Positions 14,997-29,837 of a stretch of 64,000 nucleotides of DNA are shown one piece after another. The DNA is taken from positions 248,001 to 312,000 of the forward strand of contig JAIXUG010000005.1 in the NCBI GenBank assembly GCA_027484105.1, given 5' to 3'. The DNA comes from Comamonadaceae bacterium (lineage in GTDB: Bacteria > Pseudomonadota > Gammaproteobacteria > Burkholderiales > Burkholderiaceae_C). The notes beneath the pieces were generated by a model. The model saw only the letters and a program-made list of their open reading frames with translations, made no database searches and had not been told where the DNA came from. The translations under genes and the position numbers were made by a program. Position 1 is the first letter of the stretch, and every line of letters begins with the position of its first letter.

Positions 14997-15884
14997 TCAC
15001 TTCAAGCTGGGAGGGCCCTGTTCGAAACTTTGCCCCAGCGCCAGCAATTGCGGCGTTTCAATGACCGCGTTCAGGCCATCGAAGTCCAGCATTTTTTCTT
15101 GCCAGGGGCGAGTGGTCTGGTGCGTGTGCAAGCTGGCGTAATAGCCTTGCAGCGTGTGCAGCACGGCCCGCGCCGTGCCGCCCGGGAAGATCACGATCTT
15201 GAAACCGCGCTCACCCAACTCGGCCGCGCTTTGCACCGGCGTCTTGCCGCCTTCCACCATATTGGCCAGCAAGGGCACACGCTGGGCGAACTGCGCACAG
15301 GCACGGTTCATCTGCTCATCCGAGCGCAAGGCTTCGATGAACAAGGCATCCACACCGCATTCCAGATAGCGCTCGGCCCGCTCCAGTGCCGCGTCGAGGC
15401 CTTCCACGGCCACCGCATCGGTGCGGGCCAGGATCAAGGTGTTCTTGTCGTGTCGCGCGTCCAAGGCAGCCCGCAGCTTGCCCTGCATCTCGGCCACCGG
15501 CACCACGCCTTTGCCGTCCAAATGGCCGCAGCGTTTGGGGAAGGTCTGGTCCTCGATCTGGATCATGGCAGCGCCAGCGCGTTCAAAGTCACGCACGGTG
15601 CGTTGGGTGTTGAGCGCGTTGCCAAAGCCGGTGTCGGCGTCCACGATCACAGGAATGTTCACCCGGTCGGTGATGTGGGCCAGCGTCTGCGCCACTTCGG
15701 TGGCGGTGGTCAGGCCAATATCGGAGCGGCCGAGGCGGGTGTAGGCGATCGATGCCCCTGACAAATAAAGCGCCTCAAAACCCGCCTGCTGCGCCACCAG
15801 CGCGGTGAGCGCGTCGTACACGCCGGGGGCCAACAGGGCCTTCGGTTGTTGCAAGCGCTGTGCCAAATTGTGCGGCTGGTTCAT
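14997..15884 (-). CDS. Isocitrate lyase/PEP mutase-family C-C lyase (2,3-dimethylmalate or 2-methylisocitrate lyase-like)
   Basis: A 295-residue TIM-barrel enzyme. Metal-binding VDADTGFG is at 81-88 and the catalytic loop KRCGH at 117-121 (Cys 119). That cysteine motif is found in true C-C lyases (isocitrate, methylisocitrate and dimethylmalate lyase), which release pyruvate, glyoxylate or similar plus a carboxylate; PEP mutase and oxaloacetate decarboxylase lack it. The ATG at 15884 overlaps the upstream FAD-oxidoreductase stop by 4 bp. As the last gene of the 14-gene operon it probably performs the final cleavage. The malate-type substrate is inferred from the aconitase-family hydratase in the same operon. 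Confidence 0.85.
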   Translation of the reverse strand: MNQPHNLAQRLQQPKALLAPGVYDALTALVAQQAGFEALYLSGASIAYTRLGRSDIGLTTATEVAQTLAHITDRVNIPVIVDADTGFGNALNTQRTVRDFERAGAAMIQIEDQTFPKRCGHLDGKGVVPVAEMQGKLRAALDARHDKNTLILARTDAVAVEGLDAALERAERYLECGVDALFIEALRSDEQMNRACAQFAQRVPLLANMVEGGKTPVQSAAELGERGFKIVIFPGGTARAVLHTLQGYYASLHTHQTTRPWQEKMLDFDGLNAVIETPQLLALGQSFEQGPPSLK

Positions 15885-17296
15885 GGTGCCGAATCTTTCA
15901 AAAGTTGTTGCGCGGTGTGCGCGGCGATGTGCCCGCCCGCGATGGCGCTGAGCAAACCGTTGCCCGACAGATAACCCCAGACGGCTTGGCCCGAGACGCC
16001 CCGCGCTGCGCCGCCTGCGGCCAACAGGTTGGGCAAAGGCGTGCCATCCTGGCGCAACACACGGGTGTGCGCGTCGATGTCCAGACCACCTTGGGTGTGA
16101 AACAAGGCACCCGTGACCTTGATGGCATGGAATGGCGCTTGCAAGGCACGCTGGAACGTGCGGCGAGTGGCCGGGTCGGTGCCGGGCTGCACGGCACTCA
16201 AAGTGGTTTGCAATGCCTCTGGGGCGCAAGCGATCAGCTGCGCCAGTTCATTCGCATCACCCGCATGCTGCACCGCACCTGCGTTTTGCGCTGCCACAAA
16301 ATCGGGAAACCCTTGTGCAAACGCCAGCAGCGCATCGTCGAACACATTCCACGCCACCCCGCCCGGCTGCGCCAGCACATGCACCGCCGCCTCCGAGTAG
16401 CCTTGGGTCTCGTCATGAAAGCGCTGGCCTTGGGCGTTGATCTGCACACCGCCTTCCATCATCAGCGCCCACGAGATCAAAGCGCCTTGCGGAATGGCCC
16501 AGGAGCCATGGCCTTGGTAAGCACCCAGATCAGCCAGGCGTCCACCCAGTTGTTGGCCCCAAGTGATGGCGCTGCCGTCGTTGCCCACATGGCCGGCATA
16601 GGTGGCCTCGGCCATCTCGGGCAGCAGGTCTTTCACCATGGCCGTGGCACCGCCAAAGCCATTGCAAGCCAGCAGCACCGCATCGCAGCGGATGCGCTCG
16701 GTCTGGCCATCGGGCCGCACAAAACCCACGCCGTGGATGTGCTGCGTGTCATCGGCCCACAGCTCGGTCACTTGCGCTTGTGTGAGCACCACCACACCAG
16801 CAGCGTCGGCCGCAGCTTGCAGGCGGCTCATCAAACCCGCCCCGGTTTTTTCGGGCACGGCGTGCATGCGGTGGGCACTGTGGCCAGGGTACAAAAAGTT
16901 GTCCAACACTTGCCAGGGCAGGCCGTGGTGCAGGGCCAGCGCGTCCATGGCCGGACCGATGTTTTGGGCATACGCCTGCACCAGGTGCGGCGCGGCCTGA
17001 CCGTGTGCCTTGGCCTGGATGTCGGCGGCAAAGGTTTCCACGCTGTCGGTGATGCCTTGGGCCTGTTGCGCTTGCGTACAAGGCGCAGGCACAAAGCCCG
17101 AAGACAAAGCGGTGGAACCCGCTGCAAACGCATCGCGCTCCAGCACCACACAGTCCACACCCAGGCGGTGCAAGGCCAGCGCTGCCGTGAGACCGCAAGC
17201 GCCTGCGCCCACAATCACCACCGGGGTGTGGTCTTCGGCCTGTAATGCGGAAGCCGGAAGAATCTGTGCCCGTGTGTGTGCCAGCGAGGCGGTCAT
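15881..17296 (-). CDS. FAD-dependent oxidoreductase, fumarate reductase/succinate dehydrogenase flavoprotein-like
   Basis: A 471-residue flavoprotein. Dinucleotide-binding VVIVGAGACGLTAALAL lies at residues about 26-42, ending in VVLERD, and the C-terminal FAD contact is LLAAGGAARGVSG followed by GYLSGNGLLSAIAGG. The family includes fumarate reductases, ketosteroid dehydrogenases and tricarballylate dehydrogenase, which add or remove hydrogen across a C-C bond next to a carbonyl. No signal peptide or haem domain is present. In the operon it could desaturate a saturated imide or diacid before hydration; this is inference. It starts 4 bp after the amidase stop and overlaps the lyase start by 4 bp. 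Confidence 0.85.
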   Translation of the reverse strand: MTASLAHTRAQILPASALQAEDHTPVVIVGAGACGLTAALALHRLGVDCVVLERDAFAAGSTALSSGFVPAPCTQAQQAQGITDSVETFAADIQAKAHGQAAPHLVQAYAQNIGPAMDALALHHGLPWQVLDNFLYPGHSAHRMHAVPEKTGAGLMSRLQAAADAAGVVVLTQAQVTELWADDTQHIHGVGFVRPDGQTERIRCDAVLLACNGFGGATAMVKDLLPEMAEATYAGHVGNDGSAITWGQQLGGRLADLGAYQGHGSWAIPQGALISWALMMEGGVQINAQGQRFHDETQGYSEAAVHVLAQPGGVAWNVFDDALLAFAQGFPDFVAAQNAGAVQHAGDANELAQLIACAPEALQTTLSAVQPGTDPATRRTFQRALQAPFHAIKVTGALFHTQGGLDIDAHTRVLRQDGTPLPNLLAAGGAARGVSGQAVWGYLSGNGLLSAIAGGHIAAHTAQQLLKDSAP

Positions 17297-17300
17297 GGCT

Positions 17301-17903
17301 TCAGCCCAGTTGCTTCAAAAAAGTGGCGCTGTCCATCACCTCGCCCACCGAAGCCATGTCGGAGAGGGCCGCCTGGTGCGCGGCTTCGCTGAACGCGGCG
17401 CAACCATCGGACAAGACAATGACGTGGTAGTCGCGCACATGCGCATCGCGCACCGTGCTGGCCACGCCGCCGTTGGTCACGATGCCGCAGACCACCAGCG
17501 TGTCGATGCCCGATTTTTTCAGCACCCAGTCGAGTTGCGTGTTGAAGAAGGCCGAATACGCCACCTTGAACACCGACACATCGACCAACGGGGCGAGCAG
17601 GTCCACATTGGCTTGCCCACGGCTGCCCGGCGCGAAGTCGCCCTTGCGCAAAAACGGGCGGCGCTCTTTCAGGTGCGCCGAAATCATGGGCTCGCCCTGC
17701 GCATCGGGCCACAGGGTGAACAGGCTGGACGTGACCAAACCTCCGTGCGCCTTGATGGCACGTGCCACCGGGGCCATGCGCTCGGGCAGTTTCACGGCTT
17801 CGGCGCTCAGGGTATTGCCCCGGGCATAGGCACCGTCGGGGGCCAAAAAATCGTTTTGCAGATCGACGATGACCATGCCCAGTTTGGCGTTCTTCAAGTT
17901 CAT
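17301..17903 (-). CDS. Isochorismatase-family cysteine hydrolase (amidase)
   Basis: A 200-residue hydrolase with the full catalytic triad of the family: Asp 14 (VIVDLQNDF), Lys 113 (VFKVAYSAF) and Cys 139 (LVVCGIVTNGG). Family members include maleamate amidohydrolase, N-carbamoylsarcosine amidase, nicotinamidase and isochorismatase. Its start overlaps the HyuA stop by 4 bp, so it probably hydrolyses the linear amide or ureido product of HyuAB. In creatinine breakdown a relative removes the carbamoyl group of N-carbamoylsarcosine; in nicotinate breakdown NicF deamidates maleamate. Which applies here cannot be settled from sequence; the downstream hydratase and lyase favour a maleamate-like substrate. 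Confidence 0.88.
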   Translation of the reverse strand: MNLKNAKLGMVIVDLQNDFLAPDGAYARGNTLSAEAVKLPERMAPVARAIKAHGGLVTSSLFTLWPDAQGEPMISAHLKERRPFLRKGDFAPGSRGQANVDLLAPLVDVSVFKVAYSAFFNTQLDWVLKKSGIDTLVVCGIVTNGGVASTVRDAHVRDYHVIVLSDGCAAFSEAAHQAALSDMASVGEVMDSATFLKQLG

Positions 17904-19972
17904 GATGTGCGCTCCACCAAGAGGTTGCCCAATGTGTCGACCCGTCCCTCAAAGCCTGGCTCCAACCACACCGTGGTGTCAGGCTGTTCCAAAATCGCCG
18001 GGCCTTGCACCACGGTGCCCACGGGCAGGCTCAAGCGCTCGTAGCGCTGCGCTGTCCACCATTGGCCCTGGTGGTAAACCTGCTGCTGGCCCACCGGGGT
18101 GGTGCTGCCCTCGCCTTGCGGGGCCAACACCGCCAAATCGAACTTGGGGCGCCGCCCAATGCGCGCATAGCGCAGGTTCATCACGCGGATCACAGGTCCT
18201 TGCAGCACACGGCCAAAGGCGTGCTGGTACGCCGCTTCAAACGCGGCCAGCAAACCAGCAGCATTCAACGCTTCGCGCTTGAGGGGCACTTGCAGCGTGT
18301 GGGTCTGGCCCATGTAGAGCATGTCAAAGCTGATGACCTCGTCCACCCGCACAAAGTTCACACCGGCGGAATCCAAACGCACTTGGCAAGCGTCGGCCAG
18401 CATGTCCACACGTTGCAGCAACTCGGGCCAGGCCACATCGGCCAGGGCCACGTTCAGGGTTTGCACCGCGTCGTGGCGCATGTCGGCCATCACACAGCCC
18501 AAGGCCGAAGTCACGCCCGGGTAGCGCGGCACGATGCCGGTGGTCACACCCACCTCGCGCATCATGGCGCACACATGCAGACCGCCACCGCCGCCAAAGG
18601 GCATGTAGGCAAACTGGCGCGGATCGTGCCCGCGCTCGATGGACACCACGCGGATCGCACCCGCCATGCGGGCATTCGCCACCGTCAAAATCGCTTCGGC
18701 TGCGGCCAAGGCTGTCAAGCCCAAAGGCTCGGCCACATGCTGGATGATGGCTTGCTCGGACAAACCTGCGTTGAGTGCCTGCAACAAGCCACCACCCAAA
18801 GGCCGGTCAGCGGCAATGCGGCCCAAGAGCACGTTGGCATCGGTCACGGTGGGGCGGGTGTTGCCGCGCCCATAACAGGCCGGACCGGGAATGCTGCCGG
18901 CCGACTCGGGGCCTACCTGGAGCATGCCGCCCGCATCGACCGAAGCAATCGAGCCGCCCCCGGCACCGATGGTCTCGATCTGGATCATGGGCGAGCGCAC
19001 CACCAGGCCAAACTCAATCGAGGTTTGCGCGGCAAGCGCCGCCTCGCCACCGGCCACCAGCGACACGTCAAACGAAGTGCCACCGATGTCACCGGTGATG
19101 ACGTTGTCAAAGCCCGAAGCGCGGGCGATTTCTGCGCAAGCCATCACGCCAGCCGCCGGGCCTGACAGCGCGGTGCGCACCGGCACGTCGCAAGCGGTCT
19201 GGCGCGACATCACGCCGCCGTTGCTTTGCACGATCAACAATTCGCCGCCAAAACCTTGGGCGCGCAAGTCGCCGTCCAGCCGCTGCAAATAACTGCCCAC
19301 CACGGGCTGCAAAGCCGCGTTGAGGGTGGCCGTCGAGCAGCGCTCGAACTCGCGGATTTCAGGCAGCACTTCGCTGGCCGCCGTCACACAGCTGTTGGGC
19401 CAGATCTCGCGCACAGCGGCGACGGCGGCTTGTTCGTTGCCGGGGTTGGCATAGGCGTGCACAAAGAACACGCACACGGCTTCGCAGCCTTCGGCCAGCA
19501 GGGCACGGGCTTGTTCGCGCACCTGCTCCAGATTCACGGGGGTATGCAACTGACCGTCGGCCAGCACACGCTCGTCCACTTCCAGACGCCAGGCACGCGG
19601 CACCACGGGCGTGTAGCTGCCGCGCAGGCCCCAAGTTTGCGGGCGGTCGCGGCGGCGCATCTCCAGCACATCGCGAAAGCCGCGTGTGGTGATGATGCCG
19701 GTGCGGGCGATCTTGCGCTCCAGCAAAGCGTTGGTGCCCACGGTGGTGCCGTGCACGATGGTGGCGATGTCTTTGGCGCCTTCGGCACCGGTGGCCCCGG
19801 TGACCTTGGCGATGCCGTTCATGAAACCCCGGGCTTCTTCACCCCGGGTCGAAGGCACTTTCACGATGCGGGCCTGGCCGGTTTTTTCGTCCAGCACAAA
19901 CAGGTCGGTGAAGGTCCCGCCCACGTCCACGCCCACCACCCAATGGGCTTGGTTCACAGCTTGCTCGCTCAT
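17900..19972 (-). CDS. hyuA: Hydantoinase/oxoprolinase subunit A (HyuA-like)
   Basis: A 690-residue subunit with the N-terminal actin-like ATP-binding segment VVGVDVGGTFTDLFVLDE (residues about 12-29), the phosphate-binding region VHGTTVGTNALLER (about 68-81) and the hydantoinase A core GPAAGVM...DIGGTSFDVSLV. With HyuB it forms ATP-dependent enzymes that open cyclic amides (N-methylhydantoin, 5-oxoproline). The length fits N-methylhydantoinase A and the subunits are separate, unlike eukaryotic oxoprolinase. It overlaps HyuB upstream and the amidase downstream by 4 bp each, so stoichiometric translation is likely. Confidence 0.93.
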   Translation of the reverse strand: MSEQAVNQAHWVVGVDVGGTFTDLFVLDEKTGQARIVKVPSTRGEEARGFMNGIAKVTGATGAEGAKDIATIVHGTTVGTNALLERKIARTGIITTRGFRDVLEMRRRDRPQTWGLRGSYTPVVPRAWRLEVDERVLADGQLHTPVNLEQVREQARALLAEGCEAVCVFFVHAYANPGNEQAAVAAVREIWPNSCVTAASEVLPEIREFERCSTATLNAALQPVVGSYLQRLDGDLRAQGFGGELLIVQSNGGVMSRQTACDVPVRTALSGPAAGVMACAEIARASGFDNVITGDIGGTSFDVSLVAGGEAALAAQTSIEFGLVVRSPMIQIETIGAGGGSIASVDAGGMLQVGPESAGSIPGPACYGRGNTRPTVTDANVLLGRIAADRPLGGGLLQALNAGLSEQAIIQHVAEPLGLTALAAAEAILTVANARMAGAIRVVSIERGHDPRQFAYMPFGGGGGLHVCAMMREVGVTTGIVPRYPGVTSALGCVMADMRHDAVQTLNVALADVAWPELLQRVDMLADACQVRLDSAGVNFVRVDEVISFDMLYMGQTHTLQVPLKREALNAAGLLAAFEAAYQHAFGRVLQGPVIRVMNLRYARIGRRPKFDLAVLAPQGEGSTTPVGQQQVYHQGQWWTAQRYERLSLPVGTVVQGPAILEQPDTTVWLEPGFEGRVDTLGNLLVERTS

Positions 19973-21630
19973 GCTGGTTCCTTGGTGTAACCGAGTGCGC
20001 TGTCCTTGGCTCGGTCTTGCGCCGAGCGCTCAGCGGGCTCACCCCAGCCGCCACCGCCAGGCGTTTGCAGGCGCACACGGTCACCCTTTTTCAGATGGAT
20101 GCCGAGCATCTTGGAGACCATTGGCGGTGTCTTCCACTCGCCGTTCTGGCAGTACTCGAACACATTGGGCAAAGCCGCTTGGCCGCCGTGAATCCCTTTG
20201 GGGGCCGACTTGCCGCGCTCGCCAAAAATGAACGCCTCGGCGCTGTCTTCGAGCAGTTCCATCTCGTAAATCGCACCCAAACCGCCCCGGTGCTGGCCAT
20301 CGCCACCCGAGCCGGGGCGCAAGGCCCATTGGGTGAAGCGCACCGGGTAAGCCGCTTCCAGAATTTCCATGGGCGGGATGGTGGCGGTGGAGATGGGCGC
20401 GTTGCCGTGCGACAGGCCATCGCCATCCGAATGGCCGCCATGGCCGCCACCGAAAAAGCTGAACATCACCCAGCGCTGGCCTTTTCGTTTGTCGTCGGTG
20501 CGGTGCCCGGCGATGGACAAGGCGTTGATGGTGCCGTAGGCATGGGCCACCGCCCGCTGCGGATCGGCCAAGGCCGTGGCGCTGAAGATCACGTCGATCA
20601 TGCGCAAAATCGTTTCGGTGTAGCCCCCCACCGGACGGGGCCGCGATGCGCTGATGAGCAGGCCATCGGGGATCACAAAGTCCACCGCGTCCAGCACGCC
20701 CGCATTGGCCGGCACATCCGGGAACACATGCTTCAAAGCCACATAACACGCGGCCACCGCCGTGGCACGCGAGATGTTCACCGGGCCTGCACACTGCGCC
20801 GAGGTGCGCGAAAAGTCGAGCGTCAAACGGTCCCCGGCCACGGTCATGTCGAGCGCAATGGTCAGCAGCGCGTCTTTCACGCCGTCGTTGTCCAGCACGT
20901 CTTCAAAGCTGTAACGGCCATCGGGCAAGCTGCCGATGTGCGAGCGCATCAGGCGCACGGCGCGCGTGCGCAGCTCCACCAAGGCTTGCGCCACTTTGGC
21001 GTCGCCGTATTCATCCAGCAAGCCGTCCAGGCGGCGGGCACCCAATTCGAGTGCGGCCAACTGGCCGTTCAGGTCGCCCCACAGGCTGTCGGGCAGGCGG
21101 GTGTTGGCGCGCAAAATAGCCAGCACATCGTCGTCCAGCACACCACCGCGCAAGATGCGCACCGGTGGGATCTGCACCGCTTCTTGCCAGCACTCGGTCG
21201 CGGCCGGGTTGTAATTGCCGGGCACCGCACCGCCCACATCGTGCCAGTGCGCGGCCGAGGCCAAAAAGCAATACAGCTGCCCGTTGCGAAAGCAGGGCTT
21301 GACCAGCTTGAAGTCGTTGGCGTGCGTGCCGCCTTCGTAGGGGTCGTTGAACAACCACACATCACCCGGCTGCATGCCGCCGCGCTCAGCCGCCACGCGC
21401 ATGGCGGCCCGCACGGCAAAAGCCATGGCCCCCACAAACACCGGCAGGCCCGACTTGCCCTGGACCAGGGTGTCGCCGGTGCTGGCGTCGTACAGGCCGT
21501 GGCAGGCGTCATGCGCCTCGGCAATGATGGGGTTGAAGGCGCTGCGGTACAGCGTGGCGTCCATCTCGTCGGCGATTTGCTCCAGTCGGCCACGCAGCAC
21601 CGCCAGAGTCACAGGGTCCATGGTGTTCAT
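19969..21630 (-). CDS. hyuB: Hydantoinase/oxoprolinase subunit B (HyuB-like)
   Basis: A 553-residue subunit. The N-terminal MDPVTLAVLRGRLEQIADEM, the FNDPYEGGTHANDF motif (residues about 104-117) and the late glycine-rich tail ending in LQTPGGGGWGEP are typical of hydantoinase B. It provides the ring-opening half of the ATP-dependent complex with HyuA. The ATG at 21630 overlaps the hydratase small-subunit stop by 4 bp; the longer in-frame extension to 21720 is coding sequence of the neighbour read in another frame. The length is normal for the family. Confidence 0.93.
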   Translation of the reverse strand: MNTMDPVTLAVLRGRLEQIADEMDATLYRSAFNPIIAEAHDACHGLYDASTGDTLVQGKSGLPVFVGAMAFAVRAAMRVAAERGGMQPGDVWLFNDPYEGGTHANDFKLVKPCFRNGQLYCFLASAAHWHDVGGAVPGNYNPAATECWQEAVQIPPVRILRGGVLDDDVLAILRANTRLPDSLWGDLNGQLAALELGARRLDGLLDEYGDAKVAQALVELRTRAVRLMRSHIGSLPDGRYSFEDVLDNDGVKDALLTIALDMTVAGDRLTLDFSRTSAQCAGPVNISRATAVAACYVALKHVFPDVPANAGVLDAVDFVIPDGLLISASRPRPVGGYTETILRMIDVIFSATALADPQRAVAHAYGTINALSIAGHRTDDKRKGQRWVMFSFFGGGHGGHSDGDGLSHGNAPISTATIPPMEILEAAYPVRFTQWALRPGSGGDGQHRGGLGAIYEMELLEDSAEAFIFGERGKSAPKGIHGGQAALPNVFEYCQNGEWKTPPMVSKMLGIHLKKGDRVRLQTPGGGGWGEPAERSAQDRAKDSALGYTKEPA

Positions 21631-22130: not shown

Positions 22131-23407
22131 GCCAGCACCTCGCGTGGATCGCTGATGCGCCCGCGCAAGGCCGAGGCGGCCACGGTATAAGGCGAAGCCA
22201 AAAACACGTTGACACTGGCCGGGCCCATGCGCCCCTTGAAATTGCGGGCAGTGGTGGAGATCACCGTGGACCCCTCCGGGAAAGTGGCCCCGTAACCGGC
22301 GCATGCGCCACAGCTGTTGGGCAGCAAGGTGGCTCCGGCGTCCAGCAAGGTTTGCATCACGCCTTCTTGTGTGGCCTGCGCTTGCTCGCGGGCGCTCGCA
22401 GGTGCCACCATGAGTTGCACCCCTTCGGCCACCCGCTGGCCCTTGAGCACGGCAGCGGCCGCACGCAAGTCTTCCAGCTTGGCGCCGGTGCAGGCACCGA
22501 TGTAGGCAATGTTGGGCTGGATGTCGGCAAACTCACCCACATCCCGCGTGTTGGCCGGGCTGTGCGGTGCCGCCACCTGGGGACTCAAGCGCGAAGCGTC
22601 AAAGTCTTGCTGTTCAAATTCAGCCTCTTCATCGGTGCACCACTGCTCTGCACCCGCCAACAGCTCAGGTGCAACACCGATGCCGCGAAGATGCTGCAAA
22701 GTGGTCTCGTCAGCAGCAATCAGACCAGCCTGCGCGCCCATCTCGGCGCTCATGTTGGACAAGGTCATCCGCTCGGCCATGGACAAGGCCTGCACCGCAG
22801 ACCCAGCAAATTCCACCGCCTGGTATTGGCCGCCATTCATGCCAAAACGACCCACCATGTGCAGCATCATGTCCTTGGCCGACACACCGGCTTGCAATCG
22901 GCCCGACCAATGCATGCGCAAAGTGCGCGGCACCTGGACCCAGATCTGTCCCGTCACGCACACGCCCAGCATTTCGGTCGCACCAATGCCGAACATGTAG
23001 CAACCAAAGGCACCGCCGGTGGGCGAATGCGAGTCACCCCCCACACAAAACATACCGGGCTTCAAATGGCCCCGCTCAGGCAGTACCACATGGCAGATGC
23101 CTTCGCTGTCGATCACATGAGGCAGCTTCCATTGTTTGGCGGTGTCACGCGCGATCCGCACGATCTGCTTTGCATCCGCATCGTGGGCGGGCACATAGTG
23201 GTCCAGCACCAGCACCACTTTGTCGGTGTCCCAGATTTCAGCCCCCAACTCGTCCAGCATGGGTTTGAGCCGCCTTGGACCTGACGAGTCATGGAACATG
23301 GCCAGGTCCACGTGGCAGGTGACCACCTCACCCACGGCCACATGGGGGCGTCCCGCAGCACGGGCAATGAGTTTTTGCGCCAGGGTTTGGGCCAGGTCCT
23401 TGCTCAT
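22127..23407 (-). CDS. Aconitase-superfamily hydratase, large subunit (LeuC/DmdA-like)
   Basis: A 426-residue subunit carrying the 4Fe-4S cysteine ligands C306 (IGACTG), C366 and C369 (SCGACAG), and GGDSHSPTGG around residues 123-131. It belongs to the short LeuC-2/homoaconitase/dimethylmaleate-hydratase group (about 420 residues; E. coli LeuC is about 466). Such enzymes add water to a cis-unsaturated diacid or isomerise a malate derivative. Next to HyuAB, an amidase and a KRCGH lyase it most plausibly hydrates an alkylmaleate to an alkylmalate, as DmdAB does in anaerobic nicotinate breakdown. The specific substrate is inference. Confidence 0.88.
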   Translation of the reverse strand: MSKDLAQTLAQKLIARAAGRPHVAVGEVVTCHVDLAMFHDSSGPRRLKPMLDELGAEIWDTDKVVLVLDHYVPAHDADAKQIVRIARDTAKQWKLPHVIDSEGICHVVLPERGHLKPGMFCVGGDSHSPTGGAFGCYMFGIGATEMLGVCVTGQIWVQVPRTLRMHWSGRLQAGVSAKDMMLHMVGRFGMNGGQYQAVEFAGSAVQALSMAERMTLSNMSAEMGAQAGLIAADETTLQHLRGIGVAPELLAGAEQWCTDEEAEFEQQDFDASRLSPQVAAPHSPANTRDVGEFADIQPNIAYIGACTGAKLEDLRAAAAVLKGQRVAEGVQLMVAPASAREQAQATQEGVMQTLLDAGATLLPNSCGACAGYGATFPEGSTVISTTARNFKGRMGPASVNVFLASPYTVAASALRGRISDPREVLA

Positions 23408-24372
23408 TCTGGTTTGGCCCCTGCGTATTGCACCACCTTGCGCCAACGCACGATTTCAGTCTCCACGAACCGCGCAAACTCTTGGGGGCTGTTGCCCACA
23501 GGGGTGGCCCCTTCGTTTTCAATGCGGCGCTTCACCTCGGGTGACAACACGGCCGCGCGGGCCGCATCAGACAGGCGCTTGGCCAGCTCAGGGTTCATCC
23601 GACCCGGTCCGAAAAGACCAAACCAGGCACTCGATTCATACCCGGGCAGGCTCTCGCCAATGGCGGGCACATCCGGAAAAGCCGGCAAACGCGTCGCGCT
23701 GGTCACACCCAAAGCCTTGAGCTTGCCCGCCTTGATGTGCGTCTGCACATTGCCCACCGCCGCGAACATCAGATCCACCTGACCAGCCAGCACGTCTTGC
23801 ACGGCTGGGGCCGTGCCACGGTAAGGAATGTTGACGATGAACAGCCCTGCTTGCATCTTGAAAGCATCGCCCGCCATGTGCAAGGACGAACCCAAAGCGC
23901 CAATGGCAAAGTTCAGCTGCCCGGGTTTGGATTTGGCCAGCTTGATCAACTCCGCCGTGTTGTTGGCGGGCACCTTGGGATGGGCCACCAGAATCGAGGG
24001 TGATGTGGACACCATGGTCAGCGGGGTGAAATCCTTGACGGGATCGAAAGGCAAGCTGGGGTAGAGCGAAGCATTGATGGCGTGACTGGTGAAGCTCATG
24101 AGCAGCGTGTTGCCATCGGGCGCCGCCTTGGCCACCGCATCAGCTGCCAAATTACCCCCTGCACCAGGGCGGTTTTCAACCACGACCGTGCGACCCATTT
24201 GGGTGCCCAAGACCTGAGCCAGCGTGCGCGCCATCGTGTCGGTGGTGCCGCCAGCCGGCGCGCCCACCAAAATTCGGATGGGCGGTTGCGACTGGGCTTG
24301 CGCCCAACCCGCAAAGGCCAAGACCGCACACAAGGTCAATGAGCGGCGAGAAATCATCGGGCTGGTTGGCAT
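23404..24372 (-). CDS. Bug-family tripartite tricarboxylate transporter binding protein (second of four)
   Basis: A 322-residue periplasmic binding protein with signal peptide LTLCAVLAFAGWAQAQ and the family segments IRILVGAPAGGTTDTMAR, VVENRPGAGGNLAADAVA and LGSSLHMAGDAFKMQAG. The ATG at 24372 has AGGAG 6 bases upstream. Its stop overlaps the hydratase large subunit by 4 bp, tying it to the catabolic genes; 78 bp separate it from livF. An operon with both an ABC uptake system and a Bug protein implies either two forms of the substrate or a sensory role for one of them. Confidence 0.9.
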   Translation of the reverse strand: MPTSPMISRRSLTLCAVLAFAGWAQAQSQPPIRILVGAPAGGTTDTMARTLAQVLGTQMGRTVVVENRPGAGGNLAADAVAKAAPDGNTLLMSFTSHAINASLYPSLPFDPVKDFTPLTMVSTSPSILVAHPKVPANNTAELIKLAKSKPGQLNFAIGALGSSLHMAGDAFKMQAGLFIVNIPYRGTAPAVQDVLAGQVDLMFAAVGNVQTHIKAGKLKALGVTSATRLPAFPDVPAIGESLPGYESSAWFGLFGPGRMNPELAKRLSDAARAAVLSPEVKRRIENEGATPVGNSPQEFARFVETEIVRWRKVVQYAGAKPE

Positions 24373-24450
24373 GAAAACTCCTTTGAAGAGGTGCAGATGA
24401 ATGAGATGGACAGTGAGCAGCGCGAGCATTCACATGGTTTTGACCATGGG

Positions 24451-25161
24451 TCACATGCCCAAATAAGCCTGCCGGAGGGTGTCGCTGGCCAACAATTCGC
24501 CAGGGGTTCCACTGAAGCGAATTTGACCGTTCTCCATCACATAAGCACGATCCGCAATGTCCAGGGATTGACCCACGTTTTGTTCCACCAACAAGATTGA
24601 AAGCCCGGTGCTGCGCAGTTGAGAAATAAGACCAAACAACTCTTCGACCAACAAAGGCGACAAACCCAGAGATGGCTCATCCAAAATCAGCAAACGCGGC
24701 TCGGCCATCAATCCTCGGCCAATGGCCAGCATTTGCTGTTCGCCCCCACTCAAGGTACCGGCCAACTGGCTGACGCGTTCTTTGAGGCGCGGAAAGGTTT
24801 CGTACACCATGTCCAAGTTTTGGAGGCGACGCGCTCGCCCCCGCGTGAAGGCACCCAGCTCCAGGTTTTCGTGCACGCTCAAATTGGGAAACACCTTGCG
24901 ACCTTCGGGCACTTGAATCAGGCCACGAACCACCACTTGGCGGGAATGCAAGCTGGTGATGTCTTGTCCGTCAAACTGCACTTGCCCCGCACGCGTGGCC
25001 ACCAAACCACTGAGAGTCAGGTTGAGTGTGGTTTTGCCCGCACCGTTGCTGCCCAGCAGCGCCACCAACTCACCCGGCATCACATGCAGGTCGACACCGC
25101 GCAAGACTTCCACCACGCCGTAGCCGGATTTGAGGCCCTGCACATTCAACAAAGCGGTCAT
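24451..25161 (-). CDS. livF: Branched-chain amino acid-type ABC transporter ATPase LivF
   Basis: A 236-residue ABC ATPase. Walker A GSNGAGKTT (residues about 37-45), the signature LSGGEQQM and Walker B LLILDEPSLGL are intact; the family-specific GRKVFPNLSVHENLELGAF follows the Q-loop region. It energises a high-affinity inner-membrane importer with LivG, LivH, LivM and LivK. Its start overlaps the livG stop by 4 bp. In this operon the importer probably takes up the pathway substrate or a related amide, not necessarily leucine. A small CATGGT-TTTG-ACCATG hairpin at 24433-24448 follows its stop. Confidence 0.93.
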   Translation of the reverse strand: MTALLNVQGLKSGYGVVEVLRGVDLHVMPGELVALLGSNGAGKTTLNLTLSGLVATRAGQVQFDGQDITSLHSRQVVVRGLIQVPEGRKVFPNLSVHENLELGAFTRGRARRLQNLDMVYETFPRLKERVSQLAGTLSGGEQQMLAIGRGLMAEPRLLILDEPSLGLSPLLVEELFGLISQLRSTGLSILLVEQNVGQSLDIADRAYVMENGQIRFSGTPGELLASDTLRQAYLGM

Positions 25162-25943
25162 GCCTGAACCTCCTGAGCAACTGGGGCCGTCTTGGCTTGA
25201 GCCGCGCTCTTTTGCAAACGCTCCGCCGTGCCATGGCCCAAATAGGCCTCCACAACGGCTTGGTTATGGGTCACCTCTGCCGGCGTGCCTTGGGCAATGA
25301 GTTGGCCTTGCGCCAACACCCAAACCTCTTGCGCCAGACTCATCACCGCTTGCATGACGTGTTCAATCATCAGCACCGTCACGCCGCTTTGGGCAATGCC
25401 TTGCACCACCGGGATCATCTCGGCAATTTCTTGCGGGTTCAGGCCCGCCAACACCTCGTCGAGCAACAGCAAGCGTGGTCGCGTGGCCAGCGCGCGGGCC
25501 AGCTCCAGGCGCTTGCGCCCAGCCACGGTCAAATCACTGGCCAGCTTGTCGAGCTGGGGGCTCAGACCCACTTGGCTTGCAACCGACTCTGCAAATTCAA
25601 GCGCCTGGGCGCGATGCGGCAAATGCAGGTGCGCCCCCACCGCGATGTTTTCTCTGACGGTTTGCGCCGCAAAGGGTTGCACGATCTGGAAGGTGCGCGT
25701 CAGGCCCATGCGGGCATTCAGGTGCGGTGGCTGGCCTGTGATGTCTTGGCCCGCAAACACCACACGGCCCGCGTCGGGCGTCAGAAAGCCCGACATGAGC
25801 GCAAACAAAGTGGTCTTGCCCGCGCCGTTGGGGCCAATCAGGGCGCTCAGACGGCCTTCGGTCACCGACAGGCTGACGTTTTGCACGGCCTTCAGACCAC
25901 CAAAAGATTTGCCAACGCCCTCGATCTGCAGCAGCGTGCTCAT
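25158..25943 (-). CDS. livG: Branched-chain amino acid-type ABC transporter ATPase LivG
   Basis: A 261-residue ABC ATPase with Walker A GPNGAGKTT, the LivG-typical RTFQIVQPF segment and Walker B LLLLDEVLAGLNPQE. The signature region is degenerate (LTVAGRKRLELARAL), as is normal in LivG. The ATG at 25943 overlaps the livM stop by 4 bp. The C-terminus extends about 20 residues past the usual end with an Ala/Gln-rich tail. It is the second ATPase of the importer. Confidence 0.93.
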   Translation of the reverse strand: MSTLLQIEGVGKSFGGLKAVQNVSLSVTEGRLSALIGPNGAGKTTLFALMSGFLTPDAGRVVFAGQDITGQPPHLNARMGLTRTFQIVQPFAAQTVRENIAVGAHLHLPHRAQALEFAESVASQVGLSPQLDKLASDLTVAGRKRLELARALATRPRLLLLDEVLAGLNPQEIAEMIPVVQGIAQSGVTVLMIEHVMQAVMSLAQEVWVLAQGQLIAQGTPAEVTHNQAVVEAYLGHGTAERLQKSAAQAKTAPVAQEVQA

Positions 25944-26917
25944 GGTTTGTCTCCGTCGGCCTTGCTGCCGCGCCACCACTGCAGCGGTGTGATGGTGCCC
26001 AGCCCCGCAATGCCACGCGGCAGGAACATCACGATCACGATCAACACCACGCCATAAATGACCATGTTGATGCCGGGCAGCTGACCAAACAGGTTGCGTG
26101 TGAGGTCGGCCAGGATGTGCAGGCCCACAGCCCCCAAGAGCGGGCCCCACAGTGTGCCCATGCCACCCACGATCGCGCCCACCAGGGCCTCCACCGAGGT
26201 GTGTGCCCCAAAAGCGATGGCCGGGTCGATGTACTGGAACACCTGCACATAAAACGCCCCGGCCGCCCCCATCAGACCGCCCGACAAGACGGTGGCGATC
26301 AGCTTGACGCTGAAGGGGTTCACGCCAATGGCGCGGGCGGCGTCTTCGTTGTCACGCACGGCCTGCAAATAAGCCCCAAAGCGCGAGTGGCGCAGCCAGG
26401 CGGTGACACACAGCGCCAGCGTGACCAGGCCCAGCATGAGCCAGATGAACCCGGCGCGGCTGCCAAACTGCATGTTGGCGGCCGACTCCTTGAGTGGCAG
26501 CATCAGGCCGACACCGGCCCCGGTGAAAGGCACCGAGGTGGCCAAAATGCGGAACACTTCGGCAAAGGCCAGTGTGACCAGCGCAAAGTAAGAGCCCTTG
26601 AGGCCATAACGGAACGAAGCCGCGCCCACAAAAGCGCCCACTCCCGCCGCAAAGAGCATGGCCAAGGGCAAAGCCACCCAGGGACTCAGACCCCACTGCA
26701 TCTGGGCGATGGCCTGCACATACGCGCCCGTGCCAAAAAACAGCGCATGGCCAAAAGAAAACTGCCCACCAAAACCGCCCAGCACGTTCCACGCCTGCGA
26801 CAGCAGACACGCGTACAAAGACGTCATGACGAAGTTGAGCATCACGCCCGAATCGGTGAACAAGGGCACCGCCCCCACCAGCAGCACAAACAGTGCGATG
26901 TTGCGAAAGTCTTTCAT
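25940..26917 (-). CDS. livM: Branched-chain amino acid-type ABC transporter permease LivM
   Basis: A 325-residue permease with about eight to ten membrane helices. The conserved EAA-like cytoplasmic region AVRDNEDAARAIGVNPFSVKLIA (residues about 190-212) and VGGMGTLWGPLLGA match LivM/BPD-transp-2. It overlaps livH and livG by 4 bp on each side. It forms the membrane channel with LivH. Confidence 0.93.
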   Translation of the reverse strand: MKDFRNIALFVLLVGAVPLFTDSGVMLNFVMTSLYACLLSQAWNVLGGFGGQFSFGHALFFGTGAYVQAIAQMQWGLSPWVALPLAMLFAAGVGAFVGAASFRYGLKGSYFALVTLAFAEVFRILATSVPFTGAGVGLMLPLKESAANMQFGSRAGFIWLMLGLVTLALCVTAWLRHSRFGAYLQAVRDNEDAARAIGVNPFSVKLIATVLSGGLMGAAGAFYVQVFQYIDPAIAFGAHTSVEALVGAIVGGMGTLWGPLLGAVGLHILADLTRNLFGQLPGINMVIYGVVLIVIVMFLPRGIAGLGTITPLQWWRGSKADGDKP

Positions 26918-27786
26918 GCCTTCGCTCCAAAAAATCCTTGCGGCCTGAGCAACAGCACGGCAATGAAGATCACAAAAATACCCACCTGACCCAGCGACTC
27001 ACCCAAGAGCAAGCCGCCCAGCGACTCGACCACACCAATGAGCAAACCACCGAGCAAAGCCCCGGCAAAACTGCCCATGCCCCCCAGCACCACGATGGTG
27101 AAGGCCACCAGCACAAAGCCGTTGCCCACCTGCGGGTTCACGTAATAAGCCGGCATCAAAAAGCAGGCCGCCGCCCCCAAACTGGCCAGGCCCAGGCCAA
27201 AGCACATGGCGTACACATGGTCCACATCGATGCCCATCAAGCGTGCGCCTTGCTTCTCTTTGGAGACGGCGCGGATGGCACGGCCCAAGTCGGTTTTTTG
27301 CACGATCAACAGCAACACCGCCGACACCACCAATGCCCCGGCAAAGGACACCAGCTTGGGCAAGGCGATGAAGGCCGGGCCGATTTCGACGGTGGTCAAG
27401 GTGTAGGCCGTCTCAATGGTGCGCGTGTCAGATTTGAAAAACAACAGCGCCAGGTTCTCCAGCACGATGGACACGCCCAGCGTCACCAGCAAGATGTTTT
27501 CGTCCTTGCCGTGGCTGGCGCGGTTGATCACACCGCGCTGCAAGGCATAGCCCAGCACGAACATGGCGGGCACCATGATGGGCAGGGCCATGTAGGGATC
27601 GACCCCGAACTTTTGCTTCAACATGTACACGCCATACAGTGCCACCATCAAGGACGCGCCGTGCGCGAAATTGATGATGTGCAATACGCCATAAATCAGC
27701 GTGAGTCCCAGCGCGATCAGCGCATAGACGGCACCGGTGGTGATGCCGTTGAGCACCGAAGGAAACAGGATGTTGAAGTCCAGCAT
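26914..27786 (-). CDS. livH: Branched-chain amino acid-type ABC transporter permease LivH
   Basis: A 290-residue permease with about eight helices. Conserved landmarks are the N-terminal NGITTGAVYALIALGLTLIYGVLHIINFAHG, the cytoplasmic AIRAVSKEKQGARLMGIDVDHV loop and VVLGGMGSFAGALLGG. It lies 24 bp after livK and overlaps livM by 4 bp. It forms the second half of the channel. Confidence 0.94.
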   Translation of the reverse strand: MLDFNILFPSVLNGITTGAVYALIALGLTLIYGVLHIINFAHGASLMVALYGVYMLKQKFGVDPYMALPIMVPAMFVLGYALQRGVINRASHGKDENILLVTLGVSIVLENLALLFFKSDTRTIETAYTLTTVEIGPAFIALPKLVSFAGALVVSAVLLLIVQKTDLGRAIRAVSKEKQGARLMGIDVDHVYAMCFGLGLASLGAAACFLMPAYYVNPQVGNGFVLVAFTIVVLGGMGSFAGALLGGLLIGVVESLGGLLLGESLGQVGIFVIFIAVLLLRPQGFFGAKA

Positions 27787-27810
27787 CGAGGTCTTTCAGG
27801 TCTGCGCAGT

Positions 27811-29013
27811 TCAGGCCTTGAGCGGGAAAATGGGCTCAATCTCACGGTAGTCGCGCGGCACGATCACCTTGATGTCGCCTTTGTGGACCTGGGTCATCAA
27901 GGGCTGTGCGCCCATGTTCTGGCCATTCACAAACTGCGTGGGGCCATAAGGCATGATGTGGTTGGAGAACTTGCTCGAAGCCAGCGCGTCGATGATGGCG
28001 GCGCGGTCCGTGGACTTGGCACGCTCGATCGCATCGGCCAACAAACTCATGGCGGTGTAGGTCATGAACACTTCGTAGCTGAAGAACTGACCTTGCGCCT
28101 CCACGCGCTTGCGCAACTCGGCCGAGCGTTTGTCACGTGGATTGAACCAGTGGTTGCAGTCGATGATGCCATTGGCCGCATCCGGAAACTCCTTGACGAA
28201 CTTGTAGCTCGAAGCGGCGCCGCCCAGCACCGAATAAATGGCTTTGGGTGTGATTTTTTGCTGCTGCAAAGTGCGCACCAACAAGGCGTATTCGTTGTAG
28301 TAGTTGGCGGGGATCAAGATGTCGGGGTTGACTTGCTTGATGCGCAGCGCGATGTTGTTGAAGTCACGCGTGGGGTTGGCGTGTTTGATGATTTCTTTGA
28401 CTTCATAACCATAGCCGGGCAACTCTTTGGCCAGCAAGTTGGCTGTGCCCGTGCCAAACAGTGACTCTTCGTGCACGATCATCACGGTGCGGGCGGGCTT
28501 GCCAGCGGCCGTGTTCAGAACGTGCAGGCTGGAGACGGCCACTTCGGCGCATTTTCTGTAGCCGGGACCAAATCGGAAGGTGTTTTTCAGGCCACGCTCG
28601 ACGATCTGGTCGGCCACACCCACGTCCACCACATGCGGCAGGTTGTATTTGGCCGCAGCTTGCGTGGTGGCCAGGCAAATGGCCGAGGCAAAGGCGCCGA
28701 CCACGGCGCTCACACCGGCTTCGTTCATCTTCTCGATTTCGGCCGTGCCCGCCTGCGGGCTGGACTGCGCATCGCCCAGCATGGCTTCGATCTTGGCGCC
28801 CCCCAGCGACTTGATGCCGCCGGCTTTGTTGATGTCTTCAATCGCCATCATCGCGCCCAGACGGCACTGTTGACCCGAATAAGCCAATGCACCTGTCACC
28901 GGGTGCAGCACACCCACTTTGATGGCTTTGGGCTGTGCGCCTCCAACCAACGGAAAAGCAAGCGCCGAGGCCGCAGCAGCGGACTGGCCCATGAAAGTGC
29001 GACGTGAGGTCAT
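27811..29013 (-). CDS. ABC transporter substrate-binding protein, LivK/amide-urea type
   Basis: A 400-residue type-I periplasmic binding protein. The N-terminus MTSRRTFMGQSAAAASALAF has a twin-arginine-like SRRTFMG motif, so folded export via Tat is possible. The mature domain begins AIKVGVLHPVTGALAYSGQQ and has the bilobal Leu/Ile/Val-binding fold. The ATG at 29013 has AAGGA upstream; the extension to 29151 is not protein-like. Liv-type receptors bind branched-chain amino acids, amides, urea or aromatic acids; here the catabolic neighbours suggest the pathway substrate. It is followed by livHMGF and preceded by gntR at 20 bp. Confidence 0.9.
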   Translation of the reverse strand: MTSRRTFMGQSAAAASALAFPLVGGAQPKAIKVGVLHPVTGALAYSGQQCRLGAMMAIEDINKAGGIKSLGGAKIEAMLGDAQSSPQAGTAEIEKMNEAGVSAVVGAFASAICLATTQAAAKYNLPHVVDVGVADQIVERGLKNTFRFGPGYRKCAEVAVSSLHVLNTAAGKPARTVMIVHEESLFGTGTANLLAKELPGYGYEVKEIIKHANPTRDFNNIALRIKQVNPDILIPANYYNEYALLVRTLQQQKITPKAIYSVLGGAASSYKFVKEFPDAANGIIDCNHWFNPRDKRSAELRKRVEAQGQFFSYEVFMTYTAMSLLADAIERAKSTDRAAIIDALASSKFSNHIMPYGPTQFVNGQNMGAQPLMTQVHKGDIKVIVPRDYREIEPIFPLKA

Positions 29014-29033
29014 GAGAACATCCTTTTTGAAGG

Positions 29034-29837
29034 TCAATGAAAGTTGGCGGACAACTCTTGGCTTACCCACACCTTGGCATCGATGCTGCCAACGCGGGAT
29101 AACTGCATCTGGTATTCGTATCGGTCCGGTCGGTACAAGCCATGCAGCCATTGGACGGGACGGTCGTCCTCGTCATAAATCAATCGCCGCACCGCCAACA
29201 AGGCCGATCCGACGGACACATCCAAATGTTGGGCCATGCCCACATCGGCCAAACGGGCCGAGATGGTTTGTTCGGCCCGGCCCACCTTGACGCCCGATTC
29301 TTCGAGCAAAACCAAAATGGGTTTTTGCGCCAATTCGCGCTTGCCAAAACCGGCCGAAATCGCATCGGGCACCCAGGTGGTGATGTGCGACAGTGGTCCT
29401 TCGGGTGTGCTGCGCACGCGCTCGGCTTTTTGGACCAGCGCCGTGGCGGGCAATTTCAAGGCGGCCGCCACATCCACGGGGGCGCGCAGGCGCTCGACGC
29501 TGAGCACCTTGACCTTGGTGCGCATGCCCATGGTCACCAGGTTTTCCAACAAGCCTGTCAGTCGCGCTTGCTGACCCGTGGCCATGGTGGCCGCTTGCAT
29601 CTGTACCTCTTGCGCGCGCGCCGAGGTGGGGCGTGTACCCCGCCCGGGCTCACGCTGAATCAGGCCCTCTTCGGCCAACTGCGACAAGGCCCGCCGCACC
29701 GTGACGCGGGCCACGCCAAACTGTCCCATCAAGGCCAGCTCGCCGGGCAAACCCTGGTCAAAACGGCCTTCGCGCAATTGCTCACGCAGCACCAGATAGA
29801 TCTGGTGGTATTTGGGCAAAGGCAAATGGGCATCCAT
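29034..29837 (-). CDS. GntR/HutC-family transcriptional regulator
   Basis: A 267-residue regulator with an N-terminal winged helix-turn-helix (residues about 10-75; FGVARVTVRRALSQLAEEGLIQREPGRGTRP) and a C-terminal UTRA ligand-binding domain (about 95-255) like HutC or PhnF. It is the first gene of the operon, 20 bp ahead of livK, so it is likely a substrate-responsive repressor of its own operon. I chose the ATG at 29837; an in-frame TTG at 29852 is the alternative. No Shine-Dalgarno is visible, and the predicted transcription start is at or next to the ATG. Confidence 0.9.
   Translation of the reverse strand: MDAHLPLPKYHQIYLVLREQLREGRFDQGLPGELALMGQFGVARVTVRRALSQLAEEGLIQREPGRGTRPTSARAQEVQMQAATMATGQQARLTGLLENLVTMGMRTKVKVLSVERLRAPVDVAAALKLPATALVQKAERVRSTPEGPLSHITTWVPDAISAGFGKRELAQKPILVLLEESGVKVGRAEQTISARLADVGMAQHLDVSVGSALLAVRRLIYDEDDRPVQWLHGLYRPDRYEYQMQLSRVGSIDAKVWVSQELSANFH

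Follow-up and report, generated by a model that had tools for sequence, protein, structure and literature searches.

What does a bacterium degrade with a single run of genes that joins an importer, a hydantoinase-type enzyme, a hydrolase of the isochorismatase fold, a flavoprotein, a LeuCD-like hydratase and a malate-type lyase? Such a 14-gene operon lies on the minus strand at positions 14997-29837 of a 64,000-nucleotide stretch from a Comamonadaceae bacterium (the window; C2:248001-312000 in a 3.10-Mb genome). The first-pass annotation had read it as a complete route for a cyclic imide or amide, running from import through ring opening, deamidation and hydration to a final cleavage. The ring-opening, hydratase and lyase parts of this outline are strengthened here, the amidase is corrected, and the substrate is putative. 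Sequence comparison gives about even weight to the operon being a catabolic route for a five-membered cyclic imide with a methyl group, i.e. a methyl- or methyl,alkyl-substituted maleimide or succinimide. No description of the operon was found among papers of the open-licence literature, as judged by their titles and abstract openings.

Linkage of the genes and replacement of parts

The isochorismatase-fold protein belongs to a clade without the catalytic cysteine, and its gene (the clade gene) was used to collect 90 loci, 80 from relatives and 10 from plasmids. Sixty-six of them extend 6 kb or more upstream and 3.5 kb or more downstream of it. Among these, hyuA and hyuB (>60 bits) were each found in 61, icl and fad (>150 bits) in 63 and 58, and a short or long leuC (>100 bits) in 61; these loci are not independent, many being Limnohabitans or Comamonadaceae bins. 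The co-occurrence of HyuAB, LeuCD pair and lyase, which had been suggested earlier as a check, is thereby found. hyuA ends less than 200 bp from the clade gene in 72 of the 83 loci with 2.2 kb upstream and 239-1346 bp from it in five more, and is absent from the stretch read in 6. The grouping of these genes is not chance, and their linkage supports the earlier view of the set as one functional unit.

The clade gene is present in Limnohabitans, Variovorax, Polaromonas, Acidovorax, Hydrogenophaga, Jezberella, Pigmentiphaga, Halomonas, Billgrantia and Franzmannia, and on plasmids of Paraburkholderia, Neorhizobium, Tistrella, Roseomonas, Allorhizobium, Azospirillum and Sulfitobacter. Of these, only beta- and alphaproteobacterial loci showed HyuAB, and among them the gene order is shuffled; relatives of the Halomonas group are variants without HyuAB in the stretches read. 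The order is gntR-livKHMGF-icl-hyuB-hyuA-iso-fad-leuC-leuD in Azospirillum oryzae, and in Sulfitobacter TRAP-leuD-leuC-gntR diverges from tautomerase-SnoaL/hyuB/hyuA/iso/icl/fad. In Allorhizobium leuCD and fad are present just outside the stretch first read. Within the window's genus HyuA (1e-200) is patchy, being matched in 19 of 36 genomes (a set that includes incomplete ones) and in 0 of 24 genomes elsewhere in the order.

The replacement of parts is the strongest new evidence. On sequence grounds, three unrelated families of ring opener, two lyase solutions and at least two hydratase types share one FAD family and an isochorismatase-fold partner. The ring-opening slot is held by HyuB-HyuA, by two proteins resembling PuuE and cyclic imide hydrolase, or, in two haloarchaea, by a protein of the D-hydantoinase family. 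LeuCD, in a short or a long form, or perhaps PrpD provides the hydratase, and the lyase is of the ICL family or consists of a CoA-transferase with an HMG-CoA-lyase-like protein (HMGL). Filling of the HyuAB slot by two unrelated cyclic-amidohydrolase families backs the earlier assignment of a ring opening on a cyclic amide or imide.

In Billgrantia, transporter-leuD-leuC-gntR diverges from SnoaL-like/icl/Cys-type amidase/two PuuE-like/fad. This operon is built like that of Sulfitobacter, except that a Cys-type isochorismatase-family protein and two PuuE-like ones take the place of hyuB-hyuA-iso; the SnoaL-like gene is kept, the identities are 54% for icl, 50% for fad and 42% for gntR, and the long leuC is 67% identical to that of Azospirillum. 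The Cys-type protein resembles 4l07, N-carbamoylsarcosine amidohydrolase and 3ot4/3uao. Acidiphilium holds HMGL, Cys-type amidase, two PuuE-like, leuC, leuD and fad genes in one run, with a divergent CaiB gene; its PuuE-like pair scores 119.3 and 94.7 bits against TIGR03212 (allantoinase PuuE, cut-off 424.6) and on these scores is related to PuuE and not PuuE itself. The plasmid module of Haloferax gibbonsii (L136) comprises leuD, short leuC, HMGL, CoA-transferase, a D-hydantoinase-family protein, Cys-type isochorismatase, an NTF2-like gene and fad, along with Liv genes and two PrpD. The same annotated set, again with a Cys-type isochorismatase, is found on a plasmid of Halorubrum ezzemoulense (L137), where the ring opener, isochorismatase, LeuC and FAD protein are 70-81% identical to their Haloferax counterparts.

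Other loci exchange fewer parts. Jezberella keeps hyuBA-iso-fad; a single small frame separates its livK from an upstream PuuE-like gene, whose product matches 3cl6 and 3qbu. In Polaromonas OV174 and Tistrella pTM2, hyuBA-iso has CaiB and long LeuCD in its vicinity, together with HMGL or an acyl-CoA dehydrogenase, and another Tistrella plasmid, pTM1, groups ICL (64%), PrpD, Liv, GntR and FAD (50%) genes. The Roseomonas operon has PrpD without an adjacent LeuCD, a LeuCD pair lying elsewhere on the plasmid, and in Neorhizobium the LeuCD pair is ∼6.5 kb from a PrpD gene. A search of 72,556 plasmid records gave homologs of the Billgrantia FAD protein (1e-60) in 52 and of a Billgrantia PuuE-like protein (1e-40) in 32; seven of these regions were read.

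Side observations accompany some of these loci. A tautomerase-like domain is joined to a SnoaL/DUF4440-like domain in 4 of 8 alphaproteobacterial plasmid loci (L107:5681-6247, L108, L109, L102:10604-11095). The plasmid of Sulfitobacter sp. S190 that carries the operon (L111) also bears bacteriochlorophyll synthesis genes. In Billgrantia ethanolica (L132:7099-15596, L079) the sister operon adjoins a cluster with the Cys-less enzyme and, as judged by eye, tripartite-tricarboxylate-type transporter genes. In loci of the Halomonas group that carry the Cys-less enzyme, a Cys-type isochorismatase is followed by a gene that looks TauD-like by eye (L074:17360-18448, with homologs in L079 and L083).

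Family scores and active-site residues of the enzymes

Alignment of the isochorismatase-fold protein with RutB and other Cys hydrolases revealed that the Asp and Lys are kept and the nucleophile position is Gly, so that the Asp-Lys-Cys triad of maleamate amidase, N-carbamoylsarcosine amidohydrolase (CSHase), RutB and BiuH is incomplete. Asp14, Lys113 and both Gly (Gly146 at the Cys position) are invariant in 40 of 40 aligned rows. The string NGGVAS is present in 101 of 101 sequences of at least 45% identity, a set that includes the window's own and repeated fetches of the same gene, and TNGGVA in 100, the exception being L033; all seven distinct outsiders, at 35% identity or less, have the Cys. 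Its loss is thus, as far as alignments tell, the mark of the clade, and the gene is not decayed because it is strongly conserved. In genome searches the protein was matched in 8 of 399 genomes (E 1e-20) and 1 of 369 (E 1e-35), the own genome counted in both, and the three weakest of the 8 are Cys-type outsiders. Compared with solved structures it is closer to Cys-type hydrolases (3irv, 58.6 bits) than to PhzD (44.7 bits). The first-pass annotation had named it an isochorismatase-family amidase; as a normal Cys amidase this does not hold, since the nucleophile position is Gly throughout the clade.

How could such a protein cleave an amide? Dialkylmaleamic acids are a classic case of self-cleavage. 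For N-alkylmaleamic acids, a computational study ascribes acid-catalysed amide cleavage to nucleophilic attack by the neighbouring carboxyl group (PMC3913492). We hypothesize that the Cys-less enzyme may use the neighbouring carboxylate of its own substrate as nucleophile, with Asp and Lys serving proton transfer. The alternative is a vinyl-ether type of hydrolysis as in EntB.

The flavoprotein aligns with flavocytochrome c fumarate reductases, and both Arg positions of these are Tyr in fad. The Arg pair presumably comprises the catalytic Arg and a second substrate-binding Arg, which bind or protonate dicarboxylates. Both Tyr are present in every listed homolog that covers the positions (at least 40 distinct strings in one alignment, with one row gapped) and in 9 of 9 rows of a second alignment that includes Haloferax, Acidiphilium and Billgrantia. 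With 224.5 bits against TIGR01813 (cut-off 285.45) and both Arg absent, fad falls outside the fumarate reductases. Tyr residues serve in ketosteroid dehydrogenases; because the Arg pair is replaced by Tyr as in those enzymes, the FAD enzyme probably acts on a carbonyl compound such as the ring, and not on the opened diacid.

The domains PF05378/PF01968 and PF02538 place hyuA and hyuB in the hydantoinase/oxoprolinase superfamily. Their best named match is to the caprolactamase models NF050156/NF050157 (514.2 bits for hyuA and 274.8 bits for hyuB, both under the cut-off of 1000), and the nearest solved chain of hyuA is N-methylhydantoinase (418.7 bits). They are separate genes, unlike the fused single chain of 5-oxoprolinase (OPLAH type); the other Hydantoinase_B match of the genome is such a fused oxoprolinase-type frame of 1229 aa, 30% identical over HyuB, which upholds the earlier distinction of HyuAB from the oxoprolinase type. 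HyuAB is proposed to be an ATP-dependent ring-opening enzyme.

The leuC-like protein reaches 508.9 bits against the short-LeuC family NF001614 (cut-off 385) and only 244.9 bits against the isopropylmalate isomerase equivalog TIGR00170 (cut-off 560.25); its nearest solved chain is an isopropylmalate/citramalate isomerase. The genome's other LeuC, 33% identical to it, scores 779.8 bits against TIGR00170, which rules out housekeeping leucine biosynthesis for the operon pair, as had been anticipated; the long LeuC of the Azospirillum operon (670.3 bits) passes that cut-off. The leuD-like protein belongs to TIGR02087, the LeuD/DmdB family (139.7 bits, cut-off 108.95). An ACTG/SCTN-type motif is kept in 60 of 60 leuC-like orthologs above 55% identity, and the strict SC[GS]AC string in 47 of them. 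In the YLRT loop of homoaconitase, the Arg aligns with a leuD-like Lys; this is weak evidence that the substrate has a third carboxylate, since bacterial isopropylmalate isomerases also have a Lys nearby. The pair is a proposed alkylmaleate hydratase.

The lyase is close to PrpB (TIGR02317, 294.4 bits) and under its cut-off of 354.4. Its nearest solved chains are CPPM, PrpB and petal death protein, then dimethylmalate lyase (195 to 162 bits), isocitrate lyase being much more distant (52 bits at best). As expected of the ICL/PEP-mutase superfamily, the KRCGH motif is present in 67 of 67 orthologs above 55% identity. The own genome has two further PEP_mutase-family matches, of which the one compared is 39% identical and below the PrpB cut-off. 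Because the genome holds these and a separate true LeuC, the LeuC and lyase of the operon are additional copies.

The proposed route and its alternatives

From the observed linkage, families, changed active-site residues and replacement pattern we infer every reaction, the order and the substrate. The Liv-type importer would take up the compound and the FAD enzyme, with its KstD-like active site, would desaturate a succinimide-type ring when needed. HyuAB would open the ring with ATP to an amic acid, the amide of which would be hydrolysed by the Cys-less enzyme with release of ammonia, the nucleophile possibly being the neighbouring carboxylate. The LeuCD-like hydratase would then add water to the cis-diacid, and the ICL-family lyase would cleave the resulting alkylmalate to pyruvate and a second carboxylate. 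This order, the same as in the first-pass annotation, is plausible. A five-membered imide yields a cis-vicinal diacid, the substrate type of aconitase-family hydratases, and a cyclic imide is favoured because two C-N hydrolyses leave a substrate for such a hydratase; from a lactam or ureide an amino acid would remain. The substrates of HMGL-type lyases are 3-hydroxy-3-methyl acyl-CoAs and those of PrpB or dimethylmalate lyase 2-methyl-2-hydroxy acids, and the ring is taken to be methyl-substituted because a tertiary alcohol with a methyl group suits both lyase alternatives. Our best guess for the substrate is a methyl-substituted maleimide or succinimide, with ureides and pyridine-derived rings as alternatives.

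The route resembles known systems in parts. In Eubacterium barkeri, nicotinate fermentation has at its lower end dimethylmaleate hydratase DmdAB followed by dimethylmalate lyase, i.e. a LeuCD-family hydratase and an ICL-family lyase that gives pyruvate; that pathway end, however, has no HyuAB, isochorismatase-fold or FAD enzyme, and its diacid comes from methylitaconate. Microbial cyclic imide metabolism by imidase and half-amidase, e.g. of maleimide and succinimide in Blastobacter, likewise leads from ring to half-amide to diacid by amide hydrolysis, but through other enzyme families, and its unsubstituted diacids enter via fumarate and need no LeuCD or ICL-family lyase. Creatinine degradation via N-methylhydantoin employs N-methylhydantoinase, N-carbamoylsarcosine amidase and sarcosine oxidase; here too a HyuAB-type ATP enzyme precedes an isochorismatase-fold enzyme and a flavoprotein, but the amidase is Cys-dependent, the flavoprotein is of another family, and hydratase and lyase are lacking. 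The caprolactamase CapAB of caprolactam degradation (PMC6061476) is the best named-model match of HyuA and HyuB; the operon proteins, however, lie far below the equivalog cut-offs, and the product from caprolactam is an amino acid. Passages of a paper on Aspergillus HxnM link cyclic imide hydrolase, 3qbu and PuuE (PMC9304392). The HxnM/HxnN pair of A. nidulans, a 3qbu/PuuE-related imide hydrolase followed by an amide hydrolase, recalls the Billgrantia and Acidiphilium variants; in these passages, however, its imide is a six-membered hydroxyglutarimide, no HyuAB is mentioned, and the route ends in hydroxyglutarate (PMC9304392).

Several observations weigh against a methylated cyclic imide as substrate, or against parts of the route. 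Amide hydrolysis by the Cys-less protein is questionable, the amidase slot being held by a protein without catalytic Cys. A Cys-type partner accompanies the PuuE- and hydantoinase-type openers, which speaks against the simple self-nucleophile version; the variants may thus differ in their substrates or in the order of steps. Enzymes of ureide metabolism, too, are found among PuuE-, D-hydantoinase- and CSHase-like proteins, and the PuuE-like pair lies far below the allantoinase cut-off, with no model available that tests for imide activity. The clade gene stands without HyuAB in the fetched stretches L084, L074, L083, L086, L079 and L085, the rest of these genomes being unsearched, and L094 (G180) has a FAD homolog and the clade protein with no HyuAB or PuuE-like gene in 20 kb. 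No FAD enzyme was found at 1e-60 in 5 of 7 variant genomes (three of the Halomonas group, Pigmentiphaga and Polaromonas OV174), and Polaromonas OV174 does have HyuAB. Regions of Comamonas and Salipiger combine the amidase with the PuuE pair without LeuCD or a FAD homolog nearby, the FAD-binding oxidoreductase of Salipiger having no similarity to the operon fad. PrpD was rejected as a plain substitute for LeuCD, both being together in L072 and L093; because it co-occurs with LeuCD, PrpD may do a second step.

Which other substrates would account for the same genes? A pyridine-derived compound, i.e. a six-membered imide of the citrazinate or hydroxyglutarimide type or a maleamate-type acid from cleavage of a hydroxypyridine ring, entering the same amidase-hydratase-lyase tail, is unlikely. 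A flavin monooxygenase of the HspB/PnpA kind, whose L084 and L077 versions are 68% identical, lies near the clade enzyme, a point against a methylated imide, and is adjoined by a protein of the arylmalonate-decarboxylase/maleate-isomerase family; its two best plasmid matches are on the operon-bearing plasmids of Roseomonas and Allorhizobium, in Sulfitobacter S190 the operon has neighbours of the xanthine-dehydrogenase type and '6-hydroxynicotinate reductase' genes, and Aspergillus nicotinate catabolism includes a six-membered imide (PMC9304392). The monooxygenase, however, matched only L084 and L077 in tblastn among the loci searched, the other two Sulfitobacter loci read are without the S190 neighbour genes within 20 kb, and no ring hydroxylase is recognisable in the operon. 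It is rather improbable that a ureide ring (hydantoin or dihydropyrimidine) is opened to an N-carbamoyl acid from which the isochorismatase-fold enzyme removes the carbamoyl group. N-methylhydantoinase as nearest solved relative of HyuA, the D-hydantoinase-family protein in the archaeal slot, the likeness of the Billgrantia Cys-type enzyme to N-carbamoylsarcosine amidohydrolase and the identity of PuuE as allantoinase agree with it; its product, however, would be an amino acid, no ammonia-lyase, transaminase or amino-acid oxidase was recognised among the 14 genes, and it leaves unexplained the LeuCD and malate-type lyase that are linked to HyuAB in most of the 66 loci. The creatinine/N-methylhydantoin pathway itself was rejected, given the amidase slot without Cys, the wrong flavoprotein family, and LeuCD and lyase left over.

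It is very unlikely that the operon is an ordinary one of the citramalate/citraconate or methylcitrate type, with HyuAB and the isochorismatase-fold gene serving an unrelated side substrate. LeuCD with a PrpB-like lyase would alone degrade citraconate, and L084 and some Halomonas-group loci combine clade enzyme, hydratase and lyase with no HyuAB nearby, but the proximity of hyuA to the clade gene in 72 of 83 loci and the recurrence of ring openers of three families beside the same tail argue against it. Hardly credible is an ATP-dependent carboxylase of the acetophenone/acetone carboxylase kind, with the Cys-less enzyme hydrolysing a vinyl ether like EntB and PhzD. HyuA and HyuB are in the same superfamily as those carboxylases, and EntB and PhzD, which are also without Cys, match the Cys-less protein weakly; against this, HyuA scores 288.6 bits with ApcC (cut-off 1500), being closer to caprolactamase and N-methylhydantoinase, the clade is closer to Cys-type hydrolases than to PhzD, and ring hydrolases fill the HyuAB slot elsewhere.

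As an observation in its own right, HspB/PnpA-like flavin monooxygenases are encoded at L084:954-2159 and L077:13711-14925 and in L126, L127 and L128; HspB is a nicotine enzyme. Most of these loci have a protein of the arylmalonate-decarboxylase/maleate-isomerase family together with isochorismatases, and they probably form a separate pyridine-like catabolic cluster that shares parts with the module.

Among methyl-substituted imides, those of tetrapyrroles come to mind. One study provides a scheme for the oxidative degradation of chlorophyll and heme with methyl maleimide, methyl ethyl maleimide, methyl vinyl maleimide and hematinic acid, and maleimides and hematinic acid cited from senescent leaves and lake sediments; in its own leaf samples hematinic acid was found and maleimides were undetectable, a further point against imides of this kind (PMC7318184). 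Tetrapyrrole imides would suit bacteria living with algae or plants, a possible and conjectural link. It is doubtful that the operon represents a widespread undescribed pathway for the maleimides of heme, bilins and chlorophyll, in which the Cys was discarded in favour of the substrate's cis-carboxylate as an enzymic form of dialkylmaleamic self-cleavage. Its compounds would be hematinic acid, methyl ethyl maleimide and methyl vinyl maleimide, the first of which would end as pyruvate and glutarate. A glutarate CoA-transferase search of the own genome gave 8 matches, none above cut-off, and the three neighbourhoods read gave no clear result.

Layout, setting and meaning of the operon

Coordinates of the open reading frames bear out the single 14-gene run described earlier, with 4-bp overlaps at 9 of 13 junctions and gaps of 20, 24, 78 and 4 bp at the other four (Table 1). 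The families named in the first-pass annotation were right: Pfam supports each in 10 of 10 scanned proteins, and livH, livM, livG and livF, outside the scan, have homologs annotated as branched-chain amino acid ABC permeases or ABC ATPases.

Table 1. Genes of the operon in the order of transcription (window coordinates)
Gene	Position	Strand	Product	Basis
gntR	29837-29034	-	GntR/UTRA-type regulator, 267 aa	Pfam UTRA + GntR
livK	29013-27811	-	Periplasmic binding protein of Liv-type ABC importer, 400 aa	Pfam Peripla_BP_6
livH	27786-26914	-	ABC permease	Open frame and homolog annotation
livM	26917-25940	-	ABC permease; 4-bp overlap with livH	Open frame and homologs
livG	25943-25158	-	ABC ATPase; 4-bp overlap with livM	Open frame and homologs
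livF	25161-24451	-	ABC ATPase; 4-bp overlap with livG	Open frame and homologs
bug	24372-23404	-	Bug/TctC-type solute-binding protein, 322 aa	Pfam TctC, 241 bits
leuC-like	23407-22127	-	Large subunit of short HacA/DmdA-type LeuC hydratase, aconitase superfamily, 426 aa	NF001614
leuD-like	22130-21627	-	Small subunit, LeuD/DmdB family, 167 aa	TIGR02087
hyuB	21630-19969	-	Hydantoinase_B subunit, 553 aa	Pfam PF02538, 554.4 bits
hyuA	19972-17900	-	Hydantoinase_A subunit, 690 aa	Pfam PF05378/PF01968/PF19278
iso	17903-17301	-	Isochorismatase-fold hydrolase, 200 aa, Cys replaced by Gly	Pfam PF00857
fad	17296-15881	-	FAD_binding_2 oxidoreductase, flavocytochrome-c/KstD superfamily, 471 aa	
icl	15884-14997	-	ICL/PEP-mutase-family lyase, PrpB/dimethylmalate-lyase-like, 295 aa	TIGR02317 (below cut-off), KRCGH

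GntR homologs (38-54% identity) adjoin the module in several other loci; some operons, e.g. L101 and L106, showed no counterpart of the Bug/TctC-type protein. Upstream of the operon, on the same strand, is an acyl-CoA synthetase-like gene (30015-31574), which has no counterpart among the matches listed in the loci of the 80 relatives, few of which reach that far. No conserved extra gene was found around the operon, the clustered flanking frames being mainly shadow frames, and a promoter scan gave no sigma-70-like site vs 2.0 expected.

The closest homologs of the operon are recorded as Limnohabitans, which we take to be a freshwater genus. Two records call for caution. A contig deposited as an Akkermansia muciniphila metagenome-assembled genome (L011) has a Limnohabitans-type operon with a 97% identical isochorismatase-fold protein and is probably a mis-binned or mislabelled assembly. 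The loci of Thiobacillus denitrificans strain RG (L065) and of a Hylemonella metagenome-assembled genome (L064) are 99.0% identical over 7494 bases, because of which one of them is probably misassigned or contaminated.

If the reading as a methylated cyclic imide route is right, it would give a genetic handle on bacterial use of cyclic imides, for which, to our knowledge, few catabolic genes have been described. Many genes that at present carry the label 3-isopropylmalate dehydratase, hydantoinase, polysaccharide deacetylase or cysteine hydrolase would also gain a function. The self-nucleophile hypothesis, if true, predicts a new mechanism in the isochorismatase fold. The route might then supply the last step so far missing from tetrapyrrole pigment recycling; chlorophyll alone is made and degraded yearly on a scale of 10^12 kg (PMC7318184).

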